Assembly (NCBI RefSeq): GCF_030064675.1
Contig: NZ_CP116413.1
Coordinates: 1,583,001-1,647,000, forward strand
DNA length: 64,000 nucleotides
Direction: 5' to 3'
Source of the DNA: Crossiella sp. CA-258035
GTDB lineage: Bacteria > Actinomycetota > Actinomycetes > Mycobacteriales > Pseudonocardiaceae
Part shown: one piece after another, positions 5,895 to 57,124 of the stretch
Position numbering within the stretch: the stretch's first letter is position 1
How the letters are laid out: each line of letters begins with the position of its first letter
Program-made: the position numbers and the translations under genes
The notes under the pieces: generated by a model
What the model saw: only the letters and a program-made list of their open reading frames with translations
Databases searched by the model: none
What the model was told of the DNA's origin: nothing

Positions 5895-6278
5895 GTGCTG
5901 CTCGTCTGCCGGTTCGCCGTGCCCGAGGCCGAGGTCGAGGACTTCCTGGCCAGGGCCAAACACGCCCTGGAACTGCTCACCAAGGGCCCGCACTGCCGCC
6001 GCGGCCGCCTGGCCAGGTCCACCGACGAGGCCGACCGCTGGGTCCTGCTCGCCGAGTTCGACTCGGTCCCCGCCTACCGCAAGGCGCTGTCCCCCTTCGA
6101 GGTTCGCGAACACGTCATCCCGTTGTTGTCCCAGGCCCTCGCGGACGAACCCGCGGCCTACGAGGAGCTGTGGGACGCCACCAACGGCACCGCCACCCGC
6201 CGGGACAGCCTGGTGGCCAAGGACGCGGGCACGGTCCGCCTCGGCGAAGCAGGCGGCCCCGCCACTCCCCGCCACTAG
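5895..6278 (+). CDS. Antibiotic biosynthesis monooxygenase (ABM)-fold protein
   Basis: 127 residues starting at GTG 5895. The N-terminal 90 residues have the dimeric ferredoxin-like ABM pattern (CRFAVPEAEVEDFLARAK, then RWVLLAEFDSVPAYRKAL). The tail is polar and Gly/Pro-rich. Actinobacteria carry close relatives as single-copy housekeeping-type genes of unknown substrate, so the family name should not be read as proof of antibiotic synthesis. Confidence 0.75.
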   Translation: MLLVCRFAVPEAEVEDFLARAKHALELLTKGPHCRRGRLARSTDEADRWVLLAEFDSVPAYRKALSPFEVREHVIPLLSQALADEPAAYEELWDATNGTATRRDSLVAKDAGTVRLGEAGGPATPRH

Positions 6279-24990: not shown

Positions 24991-26193
24991 TCACGCGCCT
25001 TCGACAGCCTCCATGACCTCCGCGCCGCCCGACACCCGCTTCTTCCGCCCGAAGTAGTGATCCTGGGTCGTCGACACCTTCGCGTGCCCCAACTGGTCCG
25101 CCGCCTCCCGCGCCGTCTTGCCCGCCTCATCCATCAGGGTCGCCACCGTCTTCCGCCACACATGCGACGTCACCCACGTCCACTCGGTCGTTGCGACACC
25201 CTTCTCGTCCGGCAGGTCGAATGCCTCCCGGAGGTCGGCCTGCGTGTTGGAGGGATCACGCAGCCCACCCTTGGGGGCGGTGAACACAGGGGCATCAGGT
25301 GCCACTAACGTCAGGTCAACGCGGGCGAGCCGAGTACGCCGCGCCTTCAGCATGGCTACTGTCCATGACGGCAAATCCAGTGTCCGGTACCCGGCCGGCG
25401 TCTTCGGCTCCCACTTGATATAGAGCCCGACGCCCTTCTCTCGGATGACTGTGCCGCGGATCTCTACCGCTTCCGCACCGGGGGTCCAGTCGATCGCATC
25501 CCACACCACTGCGGATGCTTCGCCGATGCGCATACCAGTGGCGAGCATCATGTCTGAGAAGTCCGGCAGGTCGCGGGCTTTAGACTTCTTGTCGCCGTGG
25601 ATCTGCTTGCGAAGTTCGATAGCTTCGCTCAACTCAAGCGAACGGCTTCCTGTCTTCCGCCCCTGCTCGATCCGTTCGAGATCCTTGGTCGGATTCCTGT
25701 TGACCGCATTGTGACGGCCAGCAAATCCCAGGATCTTGCTGAGTACCGACCGGGTGGCCTTCGCCGTAGAGGTGCCGTTTTCCTTGGTGACAGACTTGAT
25801 CATCTTCCCGATCCGTCCGAGTGTGACCTCCCGGACCCGCAGTTCACCAAGCGCTGGGATGATCTGATTGTTCATGCGGTCTTCGTACAGCCTCTTGGTT
25901 GTGGGGGATTTGGTCGAGTCGGCCTCGAACTCTTCCCACCACTTCTCGCAGACAACGCTGAACTTCGTTTCGGCGTTCATGTCGTCTGGGCTTTCTCCGA
26001 ATCGGCGCTCTGCTAACGCCTTCTTGAGCGCGATCTTCGCCTTAGTCGGGGAATCCCCGTATCGCTTCGCCCGGCGGGTCACGCCGTCGTAGTCCCGGTA
26101 GTAGCACTCTGCTAGAGGGCGTCCGTTCTTCCGGGTGACCCAGATTTCCCCGAACGTACCGACCGGGAGCGGGGGGCGGCCAGTCCTCCCCAT
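24991..26193 (-). CDS. int: Tyrosine integrase
   Basis: 400-residue site-specific recombinase that would insert and excise the phage. An N-terminal arm-binding domain is followed by a SAM-like core-binding domain (about 75-175) and the catalytic domain, with Arg222 in GMRIGEAS, His344 and Arg347 in SHVWRK, His370 in LGHAK and Tyr380 in DHYF. All catalytic residues are present, so it should be active. It reads towards the tRNA. Confidence 0.96.
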   Translation of the reverse strand: MGRTGRPPLPVGTFGEIWVTRKNGRPLAECYYRDYDGVTRRAKRYGDSPTKAKIALKKALAERRFGESPDDMNAETKFSVVCEKWWEEFEADSTKSPTTKRLYEDRMNNQIIPALGELRVREVTLGRIGKMIKSVTKENGTSTAKATRSVLSKILGFAGRHNAVNRNPTKDLERIEQGRKTGSRSLELSEAIELRKQIHGDKKSKARDLPDFSDMMLATGMRIGEASAVVWDAIDWTPGAEAVEIRGTVIREKGVGLYIKWEPKTPAGYRTLDLPSWTVAMLKARRTRLARVDLTLVAPDAPVFTAPKGGLRDPSNTQADLREAFDLPDEKGVATTEWTWVTSHVWRKTVATLMDEAGKTAREAADQLGHAKVSTTQDHYFGRKKRVSGGAEVMEAVEGA

Positions 26194-40844: not shown

Positions 40845-41191
40845 CCACGCCGACGACTCACCAGGTGATCGCCCGGCTGTCGTCCTTGTCTCGGATGCTC
40901 GATGTCGCCACCGAAGAGTACGCCCGACTCGATGAGGAATGGGTACGGGCGAAGCAGGCGCACCAGGTTGGCTACGCAAGGGCGTTCCTGCGGGCTGACG
41001 GCGCGATGGAGGCACGCAAACAGATCGCTGTGCTCGCGGTCGAGGGCCAGTGGTTCGCGATGGAGATCGCGGAACAGAAGGTCCGTGCGGTGAGGGAACG
41101 GATCCGCACGATCCGAGACCAGATCGAGGTAGGCCGGTCGCTGAACTCGGCGGTGCGTGCCGAGTGGACAGCAGGGGCGGTGGGCCAGTGA
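40841..41191 (+). CDS. Coiled-coil phage protein
   Basis: 116 residues, nearly all helical with heptads (RLSSLSRMLDVATEEYARLD and later KVRAVRERIRTIRDQIEV). Unknown role. Confidence 0.66.
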   Translation: MTTPTTHQVIARLSSLSRMLDVATEEYARLDEEWVRAKQAHQVGYARAFLRADGAMEARKQIAVLAVEGQWFAMEIAEQKVRAVRERIRTIRDQIEVGRSLNSAVRAEWTAGAVGQ

Positions 41192-41613
41192 AACGTATCC
41201 TCATCACCGGATCCCGCACTTGGCGCGACTGGGACCGGATCGAACGCGCCATCTTGGATCACTCTCCCGGCTACCCAGCGGGCGAGGACACCCTGATCGT
41301 TCACGGCGGCTGCCCCGATGGAGCGGACGAGATCGCAGCCACGATCGCGGCGACGCTCGGGCTGCCAACCGAGGTGCACCGAGCCGACTGGGATATCTGC
41401 GTGGAGACCTGCAAGCCGGGACACCGCCGGCTGCGCTACGGCAAGTCCTACTGTCCGACGGCAGGCCCGCGGCGCAACGCGGCGATGGTTGAGGCGGGCG
41501 CGGATGTGTGCCTTGCCTTCATCCGAAAAGGTTCCTCTGGCGCATCCATGACTGCGTTGATGGCGGAACTGTCAGGGATTAAGACGATCCGCTACACCGA
41601 GGAGGGGCCGTGA
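41188..41613 (+). CDS. DUF2493 / SLOG (YspA) nucleotide-binding protein
   Basis: 141 residues from GTG 41188. Begins KRILITGSRTWRDWDRI, with HGGCPDGADEIAA and CPTAGPRRNAAMVEAGADVC, the Rossmann-like SLOG signature of cpYpsA-related proteins. Such proteins bind nucleotide derivatives; phage copies are common with unknown targets. Confidence 0.88.
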   Translation: MKRILITGSRTWRDWDRIERAILDHSPGYPAGEDTLIVHGGCPDGADEIAATIAATLGLPTEVHRADWDICVETCKPGHRRLRYGKSYCPTAGPRRNAAMVEAGADVCLAFIRKGSSGASMTALMAELSGIKTIRYTEEGP

Positions 41614-43008: not shown

Positions 43009-43175
43009 GCGACGTGATCCCGATCAACCTGCCTTCTCGTGTCGAGTTGTGGCGTCGTAATCAGTTGGCACTGTCGATTCTCGGACATCGAGAGTTTACG
43101 TTGGAAACAGTGGAGATTTTGGGTCGCGTGCTGCGCGGCGAAGAATCGGTCGAATTGCCGGGCGGTGCCGCTTGA
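43005..43175 (+). CDS. Small helical phage protein
   Basis: 56 residues, ATGA overlap. RVELWRRNQLALSILGHREF helix; unknown. Confidence 0.6.
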   Translation: MSDVIPINLPSRVELWRRNQLALSILGHREFTLETVEILGRVLRGEESVELPGGAA

Positions 43176-43939
43176 GTGAGACTGATAGTCGAGGCTGGAT
43201 CAAGATCGCCGTGGACCTTCCCGACAGCCCGAAGCTCGCCCTGTTCGACGGTCCCGAGCATGGCTGGGCGTACGTCACGGCGCTGTGTCACGCAGGTCGC
43301 ACGGAGTCGGACGGGGTGTTCCCGGTCGCCCGGGTCCTGCGCCTGGCTGGGGTGAGCCAGGGGGTGGCTGATGACCTTGCGGAGGTGGGGCTGTGGCATC
43401 TGCCGGGACATGACTGTCCGCGGTGTCCTCAGCCGCCATCTGGGTGTGCCTATGTGCACGACTACCTGCGGCATCAGCGTTCTGCGGATGCCGCGAGGAG
43501 GGCTCGCGAGGCAGGTCGGAAGGCTGCTGCGACCAGATGGTCACATGCGGATCGCAATGCGAATCCTATGCGAACCGCATTGCCCGCCGCATGCGATCCG
43601 CAATGCGAACCGCAATGCGATTTCCATGCGAACCGCAATGCAGAGGTAGAGGTAGAGGAAGAGAAGAAGAAGACTTCGTCTTCTTCTGGGCGCGGGCGCA
43701 AGCGCCCAGCCGCACCCCTCCCCGAAGCCTGGATGCCAAACCCGGGTCATGTGAGCTATGCTCAGGAGCACCAGATCGACATGGAAAACGAAGCAGCAAA
43801 GTTTCAAGACCACGCAAAGTCGAAAGATCTGCGATACGTCGACTGGGACGCAGCGTTTCGAACGTGGCTTCGAAATCAAGTCACCTGGGCCAAACAGCGA
43901 TCCCCCACTCGTCAAGAGCCTCGCCTTTGGGAGCAGTGA
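43172..43939 (+). CDS. Replication initiator-like protein containing the phage origin
   Basis: 255 residues with a TTG start in a 4-bp overlap; no better start is seen upstream. The first 110 residues are winged-helix-like (RGWIKIAVDLPDSPKLALFD, then RVLRLAGVSQGVADDLAEVG) with Cys pairs CPRCPQPPSGC, and the last 75 form a helical domain as in phage replisome organisers. The 60-residue linker is encoded by the iterons and purine tract at 43545-43687 and is low complexity (CEPQC, EVEVEEEKKKTSSSS). It probably binds those repeats and recruits the helicase encoded directly downstream. Confidence 0.8.
   Translation: MSETDSRGWIKIAVDLPDSPKLALFDGPEHGWAYVTALCHAGRTESDGVFPVARVLRLAGVSQGVADDLAEVGLWHLPGHDCPRCPQPPSGCAYVHDYLRHQRSADAARRAREAGRKAAATRWSHADRNANPMRTALPAACDPQCEPQCDFHANRNAEVEVEEEKKKTSSSSGRGRKRPAAPLPEAWMPNPGHVSYAQEHQIDMENEAAKFQDHAKSKDLRYVDWDAAFRTWLRNQVTWAKQRSPTRQEPRLWEQ
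43545..43708. other. Candidate phage replication origin (iterons, purine tract, hairpins)
   Basis: Copies of ATGCGAnCCGCA start at 43545, 43557, 43568, (43579 degenerate), 43591, 43603, 43615, 43626 and 43638, i.e. every 11-12 bp and so on one DNA face. A purine tract of GAGGTA/GAAGAA repeats follows at 43642-43673, then a palindrome with 10-bp arms (43665-43674/43678-43687, TTC loop) and a second hairpin TGGGCGC/GCGCCCA (43687-43693/43702-43708). Lambda ori has the same order inside gene O. Confidence 0.75.
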
Positions 43940-45235
43940 ATGCCAGCCTACGACGTCGCCGCAGAAATGGCCCTTCTGGGTGCGGTGATGGCTAAAGGTG
44001 AGGAGGTGGGTCCGGTCCTCCTGTCCGTGCCCATTCAGGCATGGTGGGTTCCAAAACACCAAATGCTCGCTGGAGTTATCGGCGACATGCTGAACCGGGG
44101 TCAGGCGGTGGATCCCACGACGGTGACGAGCCAGCTCCAGGCAGACGGCAAGCTCACGTCAGAGCTGGGCGTATACGTGATCACCCTGTACCAAGCGATC
44201 TACATGATCCACCACGTCGAGTCCTATGCCGAGCGGCTGTGCTCCCTGTGGGCGCACCGGTCGATCCAGACCGGTGCGGTGAAGCTGCGGCAGCGGCTGG
44301 ACTCTGGCTGGGAGGATGGCGATGAGGCGGACTGGCGGCAGGCTCTCGCCGAGTTCCGCACGACCGTGGAGGACGCTGAGGCGATCGCGCGGGTGCCGAA
44401 CGCTGAGCCTCCGATGTCGATCGCCGAACTGCTGGAAGGCGAAGACCGGCATGACTGGCTGATCCCTGGTCTGCTGGAGCGGGGGGAGCGGTTCGTGCTC
44501 ACCGGCGGTGAGGGGATCGGCAAGAGCGTGCTTGCGTCGCAGATCGCGGCCTGCATGGCTGGTGGGTTGCACCCGTTCACGGGGAACCCTCTGGGGTCCC
44601 GGGGTTGGTCGTTGCGGGTGTTGATCGCGGACGCGGAGAACAACGAACGTCAGACCCGCAGGCGGTATCGGCGGATCATCCGGGTGGTGGATTCGGTGCG
44701 CGAGCAGCACGCCGTGTCCCGTGTGGACTGGCGGGATGTGATGCGGGTAGCTCTCCGCCCGGAAGGACTGGATCTGTTGTCCAACAGGGATGTTGCGTGG
44801 TTGGAGCATGCGGTGCAGGCGTCGTCACCGGATCTGCTGGTGCTGGGTCCGTTGTACCGGCTGCATCACGTCAGCGAGAACGACGCCGAGGCGGCCCGGA
44901 AGTTGCAGCATGTGATCGACGGGATCCGTGCCCGGCATGGGTGTGCGGTGTTGACGGAGGCGCACGCTGGGCATGCGACGAACCAGACGACCGGGGATCG
45001 GCTGATGCGGCCGGCGGGAACGTCGGCGTGGTTGCGGTGGCCAGAGTTCGGTTATGGGTTGCGGCGTAACAAGCACGATGACGGTCGGGAGCATCCGAAT
45101 CTGGTGGATGTGGTGGCGTGGCGTGGTTCGCGTGAGGAGCGGGCGTGGCCACAGAGTCTGGTTCGTGGCCATGACGGGTTGTTGCCGTGGCGTCCTGGTC
45201 CTGAGTACTACACGAATCTGGAGGTGGCGGCCTGA
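43940..45235 (+). CDS. Replicative helicase-like ATPase (DnaB N-domain plus RepA-type AAA)
   Basis: 431 residues. The N-terminal 100 residues match the DnaB primase-interacting domain ([16 protein letters not shown], then [11 protein letters not shown]). The RecA-like motor has Walker [11 protein letters not shown] (about 188-197), RVLIADAEN, and [10 protein letters not shown] as Walker B, of the RepA/AAA_25 type. Starts 1 bp after the initiator stop. Confidence 0.87.
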
Positions 45236-45696
45236 TGGCTGGCGAAACTGTGATCACGGTGGTCGGGAACCTGGCCGCCGATCCGGAGCTGCGTTTCACC
45301 CAGTCCGGCACGGCCGTGGCGAGTTTCACCATCGCCTCCACGCCCCGCACGCTCGACCGCGCCAGCGGCGAGTGGAAGGACGGGGAGGCGCTGTTCTTGC
45401 GTTGTTCGATCTGGCGTCAGGCCGCTGAGAGCGTCGCTGAGTCGTTGACGAAGGGCACGAGGGTGATTGCCCAGGGGCGTCTGCGTCAACGCTCCTTCGA
45501 CACGAAGGAAGGCGAGAAGCGCACCGTCATCGAGTTGGAGGTCGACGAGATCGGCCCCTCGCTGCGCTACGCCACCGCGAAGGTGAACCGGGCTCAGCGT
45601 GATGGTGATGGGGCGAGGCAGTCCCAGTCGGCGGAGGACCCGTGGGGCGCAGCCCCGTCCGGTGGCGGCGGGTTCGTCGACGAGCCCCCGTTTTAA
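45235..45696 (+). CDS. ssb: Single-stranded DNA-binding protein
   Basis: 153 residues. OB fold beginning [18 protein letters not shown] with [18 protein letters not shown], a Gly/Ser/Gln linker and acidic tip VDEPPF, the partner-binding tail. Overlaps the helicase stop by 1 bp. Confidence 0.95.
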
Positions 45697-46716: not shown

Positions 46717-47032
46717 CGAAACTCCGGCTACCGTGGACCGAGCCACTGCGCTTCGGGCACTGCCGCAGAAGTGGCGTGAGGTTGGTGACCGCGAGGCCGG
46801 GTTCGGTGAAGGCGGGGCGGGCTACTGCAACGGTCTGTTTGACGCGGCCAACCAGCTTGAGGTGGTGCTCACCGCGCCTGCCCCGTCTCCGGTGTCCGAG
46901 GACGAGGTGCAGCGCGTCGCCGAGGCAATCCGGAGCACCTACCAGGCACTCGTCCTGGCGGGTGAATGGCATGGCGGGGAGTGGCGCGAGGTGGCCCGCA
47001 CCGCGATCACCGCCATGCGGAGCGCGCAGTGA
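46709..47032 (+). CDS. Phage protein with SPVSEDE-type module (paralogue B)
   Basis: 107 residues. The C-half APSPVSEDEVQRVAEAI ... WREVARTAITAM mirrors the 35751 protein, showing an intragenomic duplication 11 kb apart. N-half unrelated. Confidence 0.66.
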   Translation: MADETPATVDRATALRALPQKWREVGDREAGFGEGGAGYCNGLFDAANQLEVVLTAPAPSPVSEDEVQRVAEAIRSTYQALVLAGEWHGGEWREVARTAITAMRSAQ

Positions 47033-47583
47033 CTACCCGCATCGTCGGCCTGGACGTTTCGTTCACCTCGACCGGTGTCGCTCGCCTCGATCAAACCGGC
47101 AGCGGCTGGCGGCATCAGCTGTACCCGATCCGGACGGGCCCGCATCGCAAGGGAGATCCGTGGGCGCTGCTGGATCGCATGGAGTACATCCGCAGCGAAT
47201 GCGCGATCGCTACTGAGCACGCGGACCTGGTCGTCATCGAGGGGCCGTCGTTCTCGTCGGTGGGGGCGGCGTCGAAGGACCTGATGGGGTTGTGGTGGCT
47301 AGTGATTCACCGGCTGCGGCAGGCCCGGTTGGATGTGGCGGTGGTCCCGCCAGCGTCGTTGAAACGTTGGGCAACGGGGAAAGGTAACGCGGACAAGGCC
47401 GCGGTGGGGGTCGCGATCGGCCGGATCTGGCCCAATGTGGAACTGAGCGGTAACGACGTGGTGGACGCGTTGGGGCTGGCGTCGATGGGTGCCCAGTTGC
47501 TCGGGTTGGATGTGCCGTGGCAGGTCACGAAGTACCGCGATCTGGCAGGGGTGTGCCGTCCGGAGCAGGCTGATGCAGCGTGA
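47029..47583 (+). CDS. RuvC-like Holliday junction resolvase
   Basis: 184 residues from GTG 47029. RNase H fold with Asp9 in IVGLDVSFTSTGVA, Glu about 69 in LVVIEGPSF, and GNADKAAVGVAIGR plus GNDVVDALGLA near the end holding the last acidic pair. Expected to cut branched DNA during replication or packaging. Confidence 0.86.
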   Translation: MTTRIVGLDVSFTSTGVARLDQTGSGWRHQLYPIRTGPHRKGDPWALLDRMEYIRSECAIATEHADLVVIEGPSFSSVGAASKDLMGLWWLVIHRLRQARLDVAVVPPASLKRWATGKGNADKAAVGVAIGRIWPNVELSGNDVVDALGLASMGAQLLGLDVPWQVTKYRDLAGVCRPEQADAA

Positions 47584-50646: not shown

Positions 50647-50942
50647 CCAGTCTCAGCCGGACAGATCTTCGACACCGGATGCTCTGCGCCATCAAGGATG
50701 GCCAGGTATGGCGCTTTCGTACCTGGGATACCGCACGCCCGTTCGAGTACTGGTGGGGCGAGCGTCAGAAGCTAACCGCAGCGGAGGCTCGGTGCGTCGC
50801 CGATCTCTTCGCGAGTCGATTGATCGCCGATGGGCAACCAACAGGTCCTAGCGTCTATTCGGGTCAACCCATGCACCTCACGGGTGTCGGGGTAGAAACT
50901 CTGGGCAGCTGGCGTGGTACCGGTGACGAGGTGACCCCGTGA
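50643..50942 (+). CDS. Phage protein, unknown
   Basis: 99 residues; LTAAEARCVADLFASRLIAD helix in the centre. Adjacent to dNMP kinase with 4-bp overlap. Confidence 0.62.
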   Translation: MTSLSRTDLRHRMLCAIKDGQVWRFRTWDTARPFEYWWGERQKLTAAEARCVADLFASRLIADGQPTGPSVYSGQPMHLTGVGVETLGSWRGTGDEVTP

Positions 50943-51499
50943 TTGTCGGTATCTCTGGCTATGCTCAGTCCGGTAAGGACACTGCCGCGGTGGTGCTCGC
51001 CCCGTACGGTTGGCGCAGGGTTGCGTTCGCGGACGCCTTGAAGTCAGTTGCGTTCGAGTGCAACCCGTGGCTGATGTACGGGCGTACGGGCCGCGATCCA
51101 TTCCAGTTCAGGTTGGCTGGTGTGGTGGGTGGCTGCGGGTGGGATGAGGCGAAGACCCGCTACCCGGAGGTTCGTGAGTTCCTGCAACGGCTAGGTGTCG
51201 CGGCCCGTGAGTACATCCACCCGGATGTGTGGGTGAACGCGGCACTCGACAAGGCCAGCGAAGCGGACAACGTGATCGTCACGGATGTGCGGTTCATCAA
51301 CGAGTTTGATGCGATCAAAGCTAGGGGCGGGCGGGTCATCCGCGTTCACCGTCCGGGGGTTGGGCCAGCGAATGCCCACGTGTCGGAGACCGGCCTGGAT
51401 GGGGCGGTGTTCGACGCACACGTGCTCAACGACGGCGACTTGGGCTTGTACCGGTCGCGTCTACTCGATGTGATCGGCGAGGTACGCCATGCAGCTTGA
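50939..51499 (+). CDS. Deoxynucleoside monophosphate kinase
   Basis: 186 residues from GTG 50939. P-loop MIVGISGYAQSGKDTAA, then LQRLGVAAREYIHPDVWV and VIVTDVRFINEFDAIKARGG, the phage T5/actinophage dNMP kinase pattern. Supplies dNDPs for phage DNA synthesis. Confidence 0.87.
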   Translation: MIVGISGYAQSGKDTAAVVLAPYGWRRVAFADALKSVAFECNPWLMYGRTGRDPFQFRLAGVVGGCGWDEAKTRYPEVREFLQRLGVAAREYIHPDVWVNAALDKASEADNVIVTDVRFINEFDAIKARGGRVIRVHRPGVGPANAHVSETGLDGAVFDAHVLNDGDLGLYRSRLLDVIGEVRHAA

Positions 51500-51863
51500 C
51501 GACGGCTTCACCGTCCCCCCGCGCTCTAACCTGCTGTGGCTGGCGATCGACTTGGACGGCACACTCGCGGAGCCCCTGTGGACGCCGGCTAACCCGACTT
51601 CGGCGATCGGTGCACCTATCGTCCGGAACGTCGCGAAGCTCCGCGAGGCGGTCGCTCACGGCTACAAGGTCGTGATCCACACAGCGCGGCCGTGGACCGA
51701 CTACGAACCCATCGAAGCGTGGCTGAACCACCACGACATCCCGTGGCACAAGATCCAGCCCGGGAAGATCCTCGCCGCTTTGTACGTGGACGATCGAGGA
51801 AGGCACGCGGAGGCAGCGAGCTGGCTGCCTGAGGTCACCGACGAGATCGGAGAAGCAGCGTGA
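51489..51863 (+). CDS. HAD-like phosphatase
   Basis: 124 residues. Motif I AIDLDGTLAEP near residue 20, motif II Thr/Ser in VVIHTARPW near 62, motif III Lys about 92, and YVDDRGRH as motif IV. Resembles small phage polynucleotide kinase-phosphatase-like HAD proteins. Confidence 0.8.
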   Translation: MQLDDGFTVPPRSNLLWLAIDLDGTLAEPLWTPANPTSAIGAPIVRNVAKLREAVAHGYKVVIHTARPWTDYEPIEAWLNHHDIPWHKIQPGKILAALYVDDRGRHAEAASWLPEVTDEIGEAA

Positions 51864-52597
51864 TCGTTCAGGTTCTGGCGTACACGAAGACGAAGCCGTA
51901 CCCGCTGCACACGATCATGCCTGCGCGGGAAGTGCTCCACGAGGACGGGTATATCGATCACCTCGACTACCCGACCGATCCGGACACGCTGTCGGAGTTC
52001 GCGGGCCGCGCTTGCTACCAGTCGTTCAACCGGCCCCGCCCGGAGACTGCATCCAATGTGGGCTATCTGGCGAACATCCTCCGCCAGGGCCACGAGTCGG
52101 TTCTTGAGCACGCATCAGTCACCTTCTACATCGAGAGCGTGTCTCGGTCGCTGTCGCATGAGCTGGTGCGGCACCGGCATTTGTCGTTCTCTCAGCTGTC
52201 GCAGCGGTACGTGGACGAGTCTGAAGCTGACTTCGTGATGCCGCCTGCTGTGGCGCACGGGATGGCTTGGGAGGCGGAGAAGTCGTTCAGTCAGGCGACC
52301 CGTACTGCCCAGATCGCGTATCAGGCCATCGTCGATGTGCTTGTTGGGCAGGGGCTTCCGCGGAAGCAGGCTCGTGAGGCTGCTCGCTCGGTCCTGCCGA
52401 ACGCCACTGAGACCAAGCTGGTGGTGACGGGGAACTTGCGGGCGTGGCGGGATGTGCTGCGGAAGCGGTGGCATGTGGCCGCGGATGCGGAGATCCGTGC
52501 TCTGGCTGGGGAGATCCTGCGGCACTTGCGGGAGATCGCACCCGCCTCGGTCCAGGACATCCCGGACATGCCATACGGCACTAAGGAGGCAGCGTGA
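51860..52597 (+). CDS. thyX: Flavin-dependent thymidylate synthase
   Basis: 245 residues from GTG 51860. The ThyX signature RHRHLSFSQLSQRY is present near residue 105, HESVLEHASVTFYI before it, and NLRAWRDVLRKRW after it. Makes dTMP from dUMP with FADH2 and methylene-THF. Confidence 0.96.
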   Translation: MIVQVLAYTKTKPYPLHTIMPAREVLHEDGYIDHLDYPTDPDTLSEFAGRACYQSFNRPRPETASNVGYLANILRQGHESVLEHASVTFYIESVSRSLSHELVRHRHLSFSQLSQRYVDESEADFVMPPAVAHGMAWEAEKSFSQATRTAQIAYQAIVDVLVGQGLPRKQAREAARSVLPNATETKLVVTGNLRAWRDVLRKRWHVAADAEIRALAGEILRHLREIAPASVQDIPDMPYGTKEAA

Positions 52598-55707: not shown

Positions 55708-55944
55708 ATGTCTCTCGCTGACCGACTTGCTAACCCGAGAGTGCGCGGCAAGGACAGGTGCGTGGTCGAGTCCATCCTGGACGACCTGGCTGATGCTGAC
55801 GCTGCTGCGGTCCGGGCTGCCCTGGCCGATCGCTCATACACCGCGGGCTTCATCGCGGAGTCGCTGACCTCCGAGGGCTACAAAATTTCGGACACAGCCA
55901 TCATCCGGCACCGCACCTCCAGGTGTTGTTGTGTCTCTCGCTGA
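55708..55944 (+). CDS. Small HTH-like phage protein
   Basis: 78 residues, GAGGAGG before the ATG. Starts MSLADRLANP, like the next gene. AAAVRAALADRSYTAGFIAE and SEGYKISDTAIIRHRTSRC suggest a helix-turn-helix such as that in small-terminase-like or regulatory actinophage proteins. Cys-rich end. Confidence 0.68.
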   Translation: MSLADRLANPRVRGKDRCVVESILDDLADADAAAVRAALADRSYTAGFIAESLTSEGYKISDTAIIRHRTSRCCCVSR

Positions 55945-57124
55945 TCGGCTGAGTCAGCCGCAGCAGCCCGACGCTCGCCGACCGAGGGTGCAACACCCGA
56001 AGGGCTGGATGCCCGGGGCCAGGCTGGATGATGGCCAGATCGCTGAAGCCATCGTTCAGTTCAACCCAGGTGAGATGTCGGACGACGAGAAGGCGTGGCG
56101 CGCAGAGATCCAGCGAGTCACCGGGTTCACCATCCCTGAGCACCGCCAGGTTGAACTCAAGGACACCCGCTACTGGGGAGACCCACAGACCCCGTACATC
56201 TACTGCCGCTTCACCATCACCGACCGCGATACCTCAGCCGAGAGGCTGGACGTCGAGGATCTCGTGAAGGCTGTGAAGGCAGTTCGTCGCAAGGCAGCTC
56301 CGAAGGCAGCAGGTACCGGCAGGGCGCTGATTGTGGCGTGGGCCGACCTACAGTTCGGGAAGGCCGGTTCCCGCGGGGACAGTGAAGACCTAGTTAACCG
56401 GGTGTTGTCCAAACTGGATGCACTCGACGGCTACGCGAAGGAAACCTGCTGTGACTCGGCGTACCTAGTGGACGTGGGCGACTGTGTCGAGTCGTTCGAG
56501 AACGTCCCTTCGCAGGCGTTCACCAACGACCTGTCGTTCCCGGAGCAGCTGCGCCTTGCGCGCCGCATGTTCACCGAAGCGGCGATGCGTCTCGCCCGGT
56601 CCCACGCGCAGGTGACTTGCGTCGGTGTGCCGTCCAACCACGGCCGGTGGCGCAAAGGCAAGGACCAGCTCGGTCGACCTGGCGACGACTACGGCATCGA
56701 AACCCTCGTTGCAGTGTCGGACGCGTTCGCGTTAAACCCCGACGCGTTCGGGCATGTGCAGTTCGTCGTTCCGGACGTGTGGGAAGAGACGGTCGCGCTC
56801 GATGTGAACGGCACGATCCTCGCTGTGACACATGGGCATCAGGTGGGTCGGCCGGAGCAGATCCCGAACTGGTGGGCACAGCAGGTCCACGGCGGTCAGC
56901 CCGCCGCGGACGCAGACATCTTGCTAACCGGCCATTTCCACTCGGTGCGTGTTCAGCCGTCAGGTCGCTCGGCGCACACCGGCCGGGCGAAGTGGTTCAT
57001 CCAGGCACCCACTCTCGACAACGGATCGGACTGGTACCGCCTGAAGTACGGGGCGGACTCAGACCCGGCGTTGATGGTGTTCACGGTGGACGCGAACGGC
57101 TGGGACAACCTGAGGTTGCTCTAG
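55931..57124 (+). CDS. Calcineurin-like metallophosphoesterase
   Basis: 397 residues from GTG 55931. The first 120 residues are unrelated to the enzyme domain and begin MSLADRL. Phosphoesterase motifs: VAWADLQFGK (motif I, with Gln in the usual His position), LVDVGDCVESF (II), VPSNHGR (III), ILAVTHGHQ (IV) and LLTGHFHSV (V). Probably a DNA nuclease or phosphatase of the SbcD/Mre11 superfamily. Confidence 0.85.
   Translation: MSLADRLSQPQQPDARRPRVQHPKGWMPGARLDDGQIAEAIVQFNPGEMSDDEKAWRAEIQRVTGFTIPEHRQVELKDTRYWGDPQTPYIYCRFTITDRDTSAERLDVEDLVKAVKAVRRKAAPKAAGTGRALIVAWADLQFGKAGSRGDSEDLVNRVLSKLDALDGYAKETCCDSAYLVDVGDCVESFENVPSQAFTNDLSFPEQLRLARRMFTEAAMRLARSHAQVTCVGVPSNHGRWRKGKDQLGRPGDDYGIETLVAVSDAFALNPDAFGHVQFVVPDVWEETVALDVNGTILAVTHGHQVGRPEQIPNWWAQQVHGGQPAADADILLTGHFHSVRVQPSGRSAHTGRAKWFIQAPTLDNGSDWYRLKYGADSDPALMVFTVDANGWDNLRLL

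Follow-up and report, generated by a model that had tools for sequence, protein, structure and literature searches.

The prophage in Crossiella sp. CA-258035 very probably carries a theta origin of replication within its own initiator gene, embedded in the part that encodes the disordered linker of the initiator; we estimate the probability of this reading at about 0.87. The window, which is the whole stretch of DNA that was analysed, is 64,000 nucleotides long. An iteron array, a strand-asymmetric purine tract and two hairpins follow one another inside the gene (Table 1). A theta origin in its own initiator gene is the simplest account of this arrangement and, given the precedents of lambda, SPP1 oriL and pSK41, one of a known kind. 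The layout of repeats in the initiator gene, an asymmetric tract, an inverted repeat and a helicase gene next to it recurs in many relatives, in which the repeated words change and their spacing is kept.

Table 1. Features of the window around the candidate origin (positions are those of the window).
Feature	Position	Strand	Remarks
Integrase gene	24991-26193	-	phrog_1
SLOG-family protein gene (YAcAr)	41050-41613		PF10686, E = 2.3e-15
Replication initiator gene	43172-43939	+	255 aa, TTG start; phrog_3926, phrog_1408; AlphaFold2 model
Iteron array	43545-43641	+	7 exact ATGCG and 2 degenerate units; consensus ATGCGAACCGCA
Strand-asymmetric purine tract	43642-43673	+	AGAGGT-type hexamers; 30/32 purines; candidate unwinding element
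Hairpin 1	43665-43687	-	Perfect 10-bp stem; top-strand loop TTC, d(cGAAg) on the bottom strand
Hairpin 2, CTGGGCGC / GCGCCCAG	43686-43709		8-bp stem, 8-nt loop
Replicative helicase gene	43940-45235	+	DnaB N-terminal domain PF00772, E = 2.2e-12; AAA_25 motor PF13481, E = 1.3e-34
SSB gene	45235-45696	+	PF00436, E = 2.7e-29; phrog_44, E = 2.5e-48
Genes for RuvC-like resolvase, deoxynucleoside monophosphate kinase, thymidylate synthase and exonuclease	46966-47583, 50939-51499, 51860-52597, 55931-57124

Prophage setting and the initiator protein

GC content falls near 25 kb of the window, from mostly 0.70–0.77 to mostly 0.61–0.69, and the integrase gene lies at this place, with the lower GC to its right. 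The integrase and the fall in GC suggest a prophage, of which the integrase region is likely the left end. The same region holds the resolvase, kinase, synthase and exonuclease genes listed in Table 1. The SLOG-family gene lies just 5′ of the replication genes, and its product has a sub-threshold match to RepB_primase_C (E = 0.022, 15.1 bits against a cut-off of 26.1); no primase was found above the cut-off among the 18 window proteins scanned. Cumulative GC skew shows no turn at 43.6 kb and has its minimum near 38 kb. As an origin map, GC skew was rejected as uninformative; skew here may reflect transcription.

The gene next to the initiator gene had been called a helicase from the letters alone, and this was confirmed by the matches to a DnaB N-terminal domain and a RecA-like motor. 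Searched against the PDB, its product matched 2r5u (“Replicative DNA helicase”, E = 4.2e-5) and 1g8y (“Regulatory protein RepA”, E = 0.0098), the latter of which we take to be RepA of RSF1010. The helicase looks chimeric, with a DnaB N-terminal domain fused to a RepA-like motor. A similar gene order, HNH – initiator – helicase – SSB, was observed in Gordonia phages of the Ruthgordonvirinae.

The initiator matched two families annotated as “replication initiation protein”, phrog_3926 over residues 6–157, the N-terminal half (E = 3.1e-14), and phrog_1408 (E = 7.3e-8). An AlphaFold2 model built from 35 sequences (mean pLDDT 83.5, pTM 0.51) gave block means of pLDDT of 89–98 for residues 11–120, 80 for residues 121–130, 43–65 for residues 131–180 and 96–97 for residues 181–240. 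The model supports a predicted protein with a winged-helix-like N-terminal domain, a disordered linker and a helical C-terminal domain. The repeats, the tract and the hairpins (43545-43709) map to residues 125–180, which is essentially the linker. The earlier note had described a winged-helix-like part joined to a helical part; the two domains are present in the model, and the winged-helix label is drawn from the secondary-structure pattern and from weak matches.

Foldseek returned 0 hits for the model at E ≤ 0.001, and the match ranked first, 4pt7_B “initiator”, is weak (probability 0.85, E = 0.18, TM 0.23/0.41); 4pt7 is presumably RepA of staphylococcal plasmids. Profiles of both domains gave no meaningful hit against the sequences of solved structures. 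Neither the lambda O model nor the RepA_N model was among the 4 Pfam matches of the initiator up to E = 1, a search in which the HMMER filters discard most matches above about 0.1. The DnaT domain PF17948 was matched by three of the six members of the C-terminal alignment and not by the window's own domain. By tblastn, residues 181–244 align with phage genes annotated as “primosomal protein I” or replication protein.

Iterons and tandem tracts in the window and its relatives

Exact copies of ATGCG start at 43545, 43557, 43568, 43591, 43603, 43615 and 43626, in steps of 12, 11, 23, 12, 12 and 11 bp. A degenerate unit, ATTGCCCGCCGC, sits within the 23-bp gap, and ATGCA at 43638 is the second degenerate unit. 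The nine ATGCG-based repeats of 11–12 bp that the earlier note had counted are thus seven exact and two degenerate units with one 23-bp gap between exact copies. These spacings also bear out its remark that such a period shifts the reading frame. The repeats are not exactly in helical phase as it had supposed: the mean step is 11.6 bp and not the 10.5 bp needed, so that the units drift around the helix. In none of 2000 dinucleotide shuffles of the gene did any 5-mer attain seven copies in 95 bp (the highest count was 5), nor did it in any of 2000 protein-preserving synonymous-codon shuffles (maximum 6, once). Among 83 fixed tiles of 765 bp across the window, which include the initiator gene and one border of which splits the array, none reached seven copies (maximum 6).

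Relatives were gathered mostly by similarity of the N-terminal domain (loci L004, L007 and L070 through other parts of the protein), and one search contributed its best 30 loci. The 127 genes, including that of the window, were reduced to 101 after 7 that were too short and 19 near-duplicates had been dropped; the set was chosen by homology, and some members may not be initiators. Loci from a separate search with the C-terminal domain stand outside the 101. Distances between exact 7-mer pairs were enriched in these genes at 5, 10, 11, 12, 22, 23, 34 and 35 bp, by 3.5–15.5 times relative to the flanks of the related loci, each gene contributing at most 6 counts to any one distance and the flanks not being separately de-duplicated.

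An array was defined as a chain of 7-mers with one mismatch allowed and steps of 10–13 or 21–25 bp. By this measure, arrays of at least 4 copies were found in 45 of the 101 genes, compared to 65 of 2020 shuffles and to 30 of the 350 tiles taken from the flanks, and arrays of at least 5 copies in 23 genes, compared to 2 of 2020 shuffles and 8 of 350 tiles; the other 56 genes stay below 4 copies. The words vary by lineage and include AATGCGA (the window), GATCGCA, ATGGCA, GGAGTCC, GATCAAG, GAAGCAA, TAACGCC and others, with CGAATCG in several Streptomyces-type genes. The 11-bp step is the commonest within arrays (67/169 steps). Outside the initiator frames, scanning the loci in full yielded 12 arrays of at least 5 copies, 8 of which keep one frame.

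The array codes for the protein linker, which is predicted to be disordered, and the repeats could accordingly be a feature of the protein, a low-complexity linker expanded by slippage that has no function as DNA. The reading frame, however, shifts between the units in the window, and 41 of the 45 arrays use more than one frame, which argues that they are not protein repeats. Together with the codon shuffles and the prevalence of the 11-bp step, this makes a pure protein feature extremely improbable.

Relatives with a conserved initiator and no repeats, which the earlier note had named as evidence against an origin, occur in one branch: 8 of 10 genes of the SF3/VWB type have no array of at least 4 copies, which indicates that an N-terminal domain of this kind does not require an array in its gene. 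Many other relatives keep the layout. Similarity of array words was correlated with N-terminal similarity (partial Mantel 0.185, p = 0.004, n = 41) and also significantly with C-terminal similarity (0.13, p = 0.01, n = 41); for the longest arrays (at least 5 copies, n = 21), neither the N-terminal nor the C-terminal term was significant (p = 0.059 and 0.06). Shared array 6-mers averaged 0.29 in the 17 pairs with N-terminal similarity of 0.45–0.60 and unrelated C-terminal parts, and 0.05 at low N-terminal similarity. Such tracking of the words with the N-terminal part would be expected if the N-terminal domain reads them, and is consistent with that role rather than proof of it.

The purine tract that had been reported after the repeats is real, being the most purine-rich 32-mer on the + strand of the window, and its GC content is 0.44 compared to 0.68 for the window. 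The low-GC asymmetric tract beside the iterons of the window has counterparts in relatives, where perfect tandem runs of 4–7-bp units and at least 18 nt were found in 22 of the 101 genes and in 0 of 358 flank tiles; purine tracts and CCCGA, GGAAG and CAGAGA repeats are the usual forms. A sample picked by position, as the gene upstream of a window-like helicase, was available from 8 of 65 phage records, and several of the eight genes are interrelated. At least four iterons were present in four of them, three in another three (a level that is common in shuffles) and two in the last (L194), and six of the eight carry a tandem run of at least 18 nt.

The array might also serve as an operator, bound by the initiator or by another repressor to block transcription of its own gene, with the origin located elsewhere. 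Repeated sites within a gene can act as roadblocks, but a simple operator has no role for the tract and the hairpin beside the array, and the layout fits known in-gene origins. An operator is therefore considered very unlikely, and the array is treated below as part of a theta origin.

A hairpin of the cGN(N)Ag class

Both hairpins described by the earlier note are real, and they overlap by 2 nt. Hairpin 1 belongs to the cGNAg class on the bottom strand, with a C-G closing pair, a GAA loop and a perfect stem. The loops cGNAg and cGNNAg are exceptionally stable classes of DNA loop. When the bottom strand was folded with DNA parameters, both hairpins formed (z = -3.6, with 0 of 200 shuffles as good).

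A perfect d(cGNAg) or d(cGNNAg) hairpin with a stem of at least 7 bp was found in 36 of the 101 genes, including that of the window, and was absent from 65 under a perfect-stem criterion that overlooks hairpins with mismatches. The GN(N)A loop lies on the bottom strand in 33 of the 36 genes and on the top strand in three (L069, L113 and L160). With stems of at least 8 bp, such hairpins number 34 in 88 kb of genes, compared to a single one in 425 kb of flanks. The class with a C-G closing pair and a GNA loop accounts for 27 of the 35 triloop hairpins of this stem length in genes and for 0 of 26 in flanks; in 25 of the 27 the top-strand loop is TNC, which puts d(cGNAg) on the bottom strand, and 2 are flipped. 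Tetraloops of the form d(cGNNAg) number 7 in genes and 1 in flanks, likewise with stems of at least 8 bp. Both a hairpin and an array of at least 4 copies are present in 15 genes, and in 14 of these the array ends 28–124 nt 5′ of the hairpin. By C-terminal type, which is a rough motif class, the hairpin was found in 11/11, 5/5, 3/4 and 17/55 genes, and in 0/16 of the HNH type and 0/10 of the SF3/VWB type. It was also found in 0 of the 5 position-picked Gordonia genes examined. Among the 17 hairpins listed near the C-terminal domain in 28 loci, most of which were found through that domain, 3 are of the loop class (L012, L026 and L035), each with one stem mismatch.

A GTGAC...GTCAC dyad occurs in 20 genes, 17 of which have the hairpin. 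Covariation was analysed in 18 type-B relatives, namely these 17 and L178, which has no hairpin; L121 and L177 were left out because their sequence there did not look related. In the alignment, 92.9% of the stem cells pair, 7 of 11 pairs change on both sides, and double-sided changes outnumber single-sided ones by 34 to 3; all these values were lowered by sliding the partner, and they lean towards the stem, as the aligned sequences are related to one another and also served to define it. Compared with 500 shuffles, four covariation measures were in excess (0, 11, 0 and 0 shuffles as high), and a fifth, further pair types, showed no excess (464 of 500 as high). On this alignment, the hairpin seems to be conserved for its structure and loop class, with the stem sequence free to vary.

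Two other roles were considered for the hairpin. The first is that it acts as RNA, as an attenuator, a pause site or a stability element. The top strand as RNA does fold better than shuffles (z = -2.9, with 2 of 200 as good), and UNAC tetraloops are known RNA motifs. The fold, however, has a 7-nt loop and not the triloop, the bias to a C-G closing pair and a GNA loop concerns one strand, the loops of this class mostly read UNC on the transcript, and in L069, L113 and L160 it is the top strand that has the GNA or GNNA loop. G-U or U-G pairs are seen in only 3 of 197 cells, against 34 cells with changes on both sides, and no T run was found 3′ of the window hairpins. A function as RNA is therefore considered unlikely.

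The second is that the hairpin is a recombination joint for the exchange of C-terminal modules of the initiator. Recombination joints have been proposed for module boundaries in lambdoid phages; the hairpin precedes the C-terminal domain, and several C-terminal types stand behind related N-terminal domains. A homologous joint should nevertheless conserve sequence, whereas here the stem varies with pairing kept and it is the structure and the loop class that stay constant, which makes a joint distinctly less probable than an RNA element.

Known origins and the proposed mechanism

The earlier note had called the origin lambda-like, and this holds for the architecture. In lambda and Stx phages, the iterons lie in the middle of gene O and are followed by an AT-rich tract (PMC7466680), as the array and the low-GC tract do here. 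The likeness does not extend to homology, with no Pfam match to lambda O, nor to the next gene, which encodes a helicase here and not the loader P. Lambda also has four annotated 18-bp iterons at a spacing of 20–24 bp, and a 1-kb stretch of its origin contains no small-loop cGNAg hairpin with a stem of at least 6 bp.

In SPP1, oriL lies in gene 38 (G38P), with direct repeats and an AT-rich unwinding element within the initiator gene and a helicase in the module (PMC6316719); SPP1 differs in its separate loader, gp39. The rep gene of TP901-1 has no cGNAg hairpin with a stem of at least 6 bp. In pSK41, the origin boxes lie centrally in rep, where the encoded stretch of protein is dispensable, and initiators of this type have an N-terminal DNA-binding domain and DnaD-like folds (PMC5703833). 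The central in-gene origin is shared with these RepA_N initiators, to which the weak structural match 4pt7 also points, but the host, the C-terminal domain and the helicase differ, and no RepA_N match was found here in Pfam.

A further parallel is RSF1010, in which the primase RepB′ recognises ssiA, a hairpin in single-stranded DNA (PMC4434180). The motor of the window helicase resembles RepA (1g8y), and the hairpin of the window differs in lying inside the initiator gene. Because of this parallel, a related helicase motor and ssi hairpins, it is plausible that the hairpin would be a single-strand landmark for the loading of helicase or primase.

The first 3.5 kb of phage N4 contain two cGNAg triloop hairpins (stems of at least 5 bp) at 90-102 and 557-573, which we take to be the early promoters of the vRNAP. 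With stems of 5 and 7 bp, they stand in the same orientation ahead of genes 1 and 2. The promoter hairpins of N4 drive transcription by the phage polymerase; no polymerase of the N4 type was found among the window proteins scanned. The F–G intergenic stretch of phiX174 contains no cGNAg hairpin with a stem of at least 5 bp.

For the theta origin proposed here, the winged-helix-like N-terminal domain would bind the iterons, about 11.6 bp apart, in a cooperative manner, and the strain of binding would open the adjoining low-GC purine tract. Hairpin 1 would then extrude from the bottom strand to form a compact mini-hairpin, d(cGAAg), and, judging from the conservation of its structure in relatives, may keep the bubble open and mark the strand. 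The C-terminal domain, possibly DnaT-like, would load the product of the next gene, the phage helicase, onto the strand that is exposed, to be followed by SSB and then by host primase and polymerase. A wider and more tentative proposal, to which we give somewhat less than an even chance, is that some phage origins, in actinobacterial phages and perhaps others, combine iterons and an unwinding tract with a d(cGN(N)Ag) mini-hairpin on one strand that owes its conservation solely to its single-strand shape. On melting it would extrude and direct the loading of helicase or primase, as an in-built initiation site for single strands that the linker part of the initiator gene encodes. The hairpin makes a testable claim, that of strand-specific loading at a double-strand origin.

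In the open-licence literature (titles, starts of abstracts and passages), no description was found of actinobacterial-phage origins of this kind, either as arrays or as hairpins. Nor did we meet there, within incomplete coverage, the family rule of 11–12-bp iterons with changing words together with a shape-conserved cGN(N)Ag hairpin. The rule offers a way to pick candidate origins, in which 11–12-bp iterons and a short, asymmetric run of tandem repeats share an initiator linker, joined in some lineages by a cGNAg hairpin. It points to candidates in cultured phages that infect Streptomyces, Arthrobacter and Gordonia, and arrays of at least 4 copies were found in phages Darolandstone, Popper, Whitney, TinaLin, Dardanus, Gsput1 and Huffy. 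Since a single gene contains both the site and its presumed reader, and the words turn over at a constant spacing, these genes form a natural series in which the co-change of initiator and binding word can be followed.

Repeats were also observed beyond the linker. Locus L004 has a second array, of 12-bp period, about 70 bp upstream of position 6001, and its word, of the GTACTAC/GTATTAC type, is similar to that of the linker array when the latter is reverse-complemented; the N-terminal coding region of L004 appears to carry iterons itself. In L007, GTGACG arrays are present in both the linker and the N-terminal coding region, the upstream part of the initiator gene. L010 (Scrofimicrobium canadense) carries six copies of ATTTGCG, with one mismatch allowed, at an exact spacing of 21 bp about 1260 bp upstream of the initiator match.
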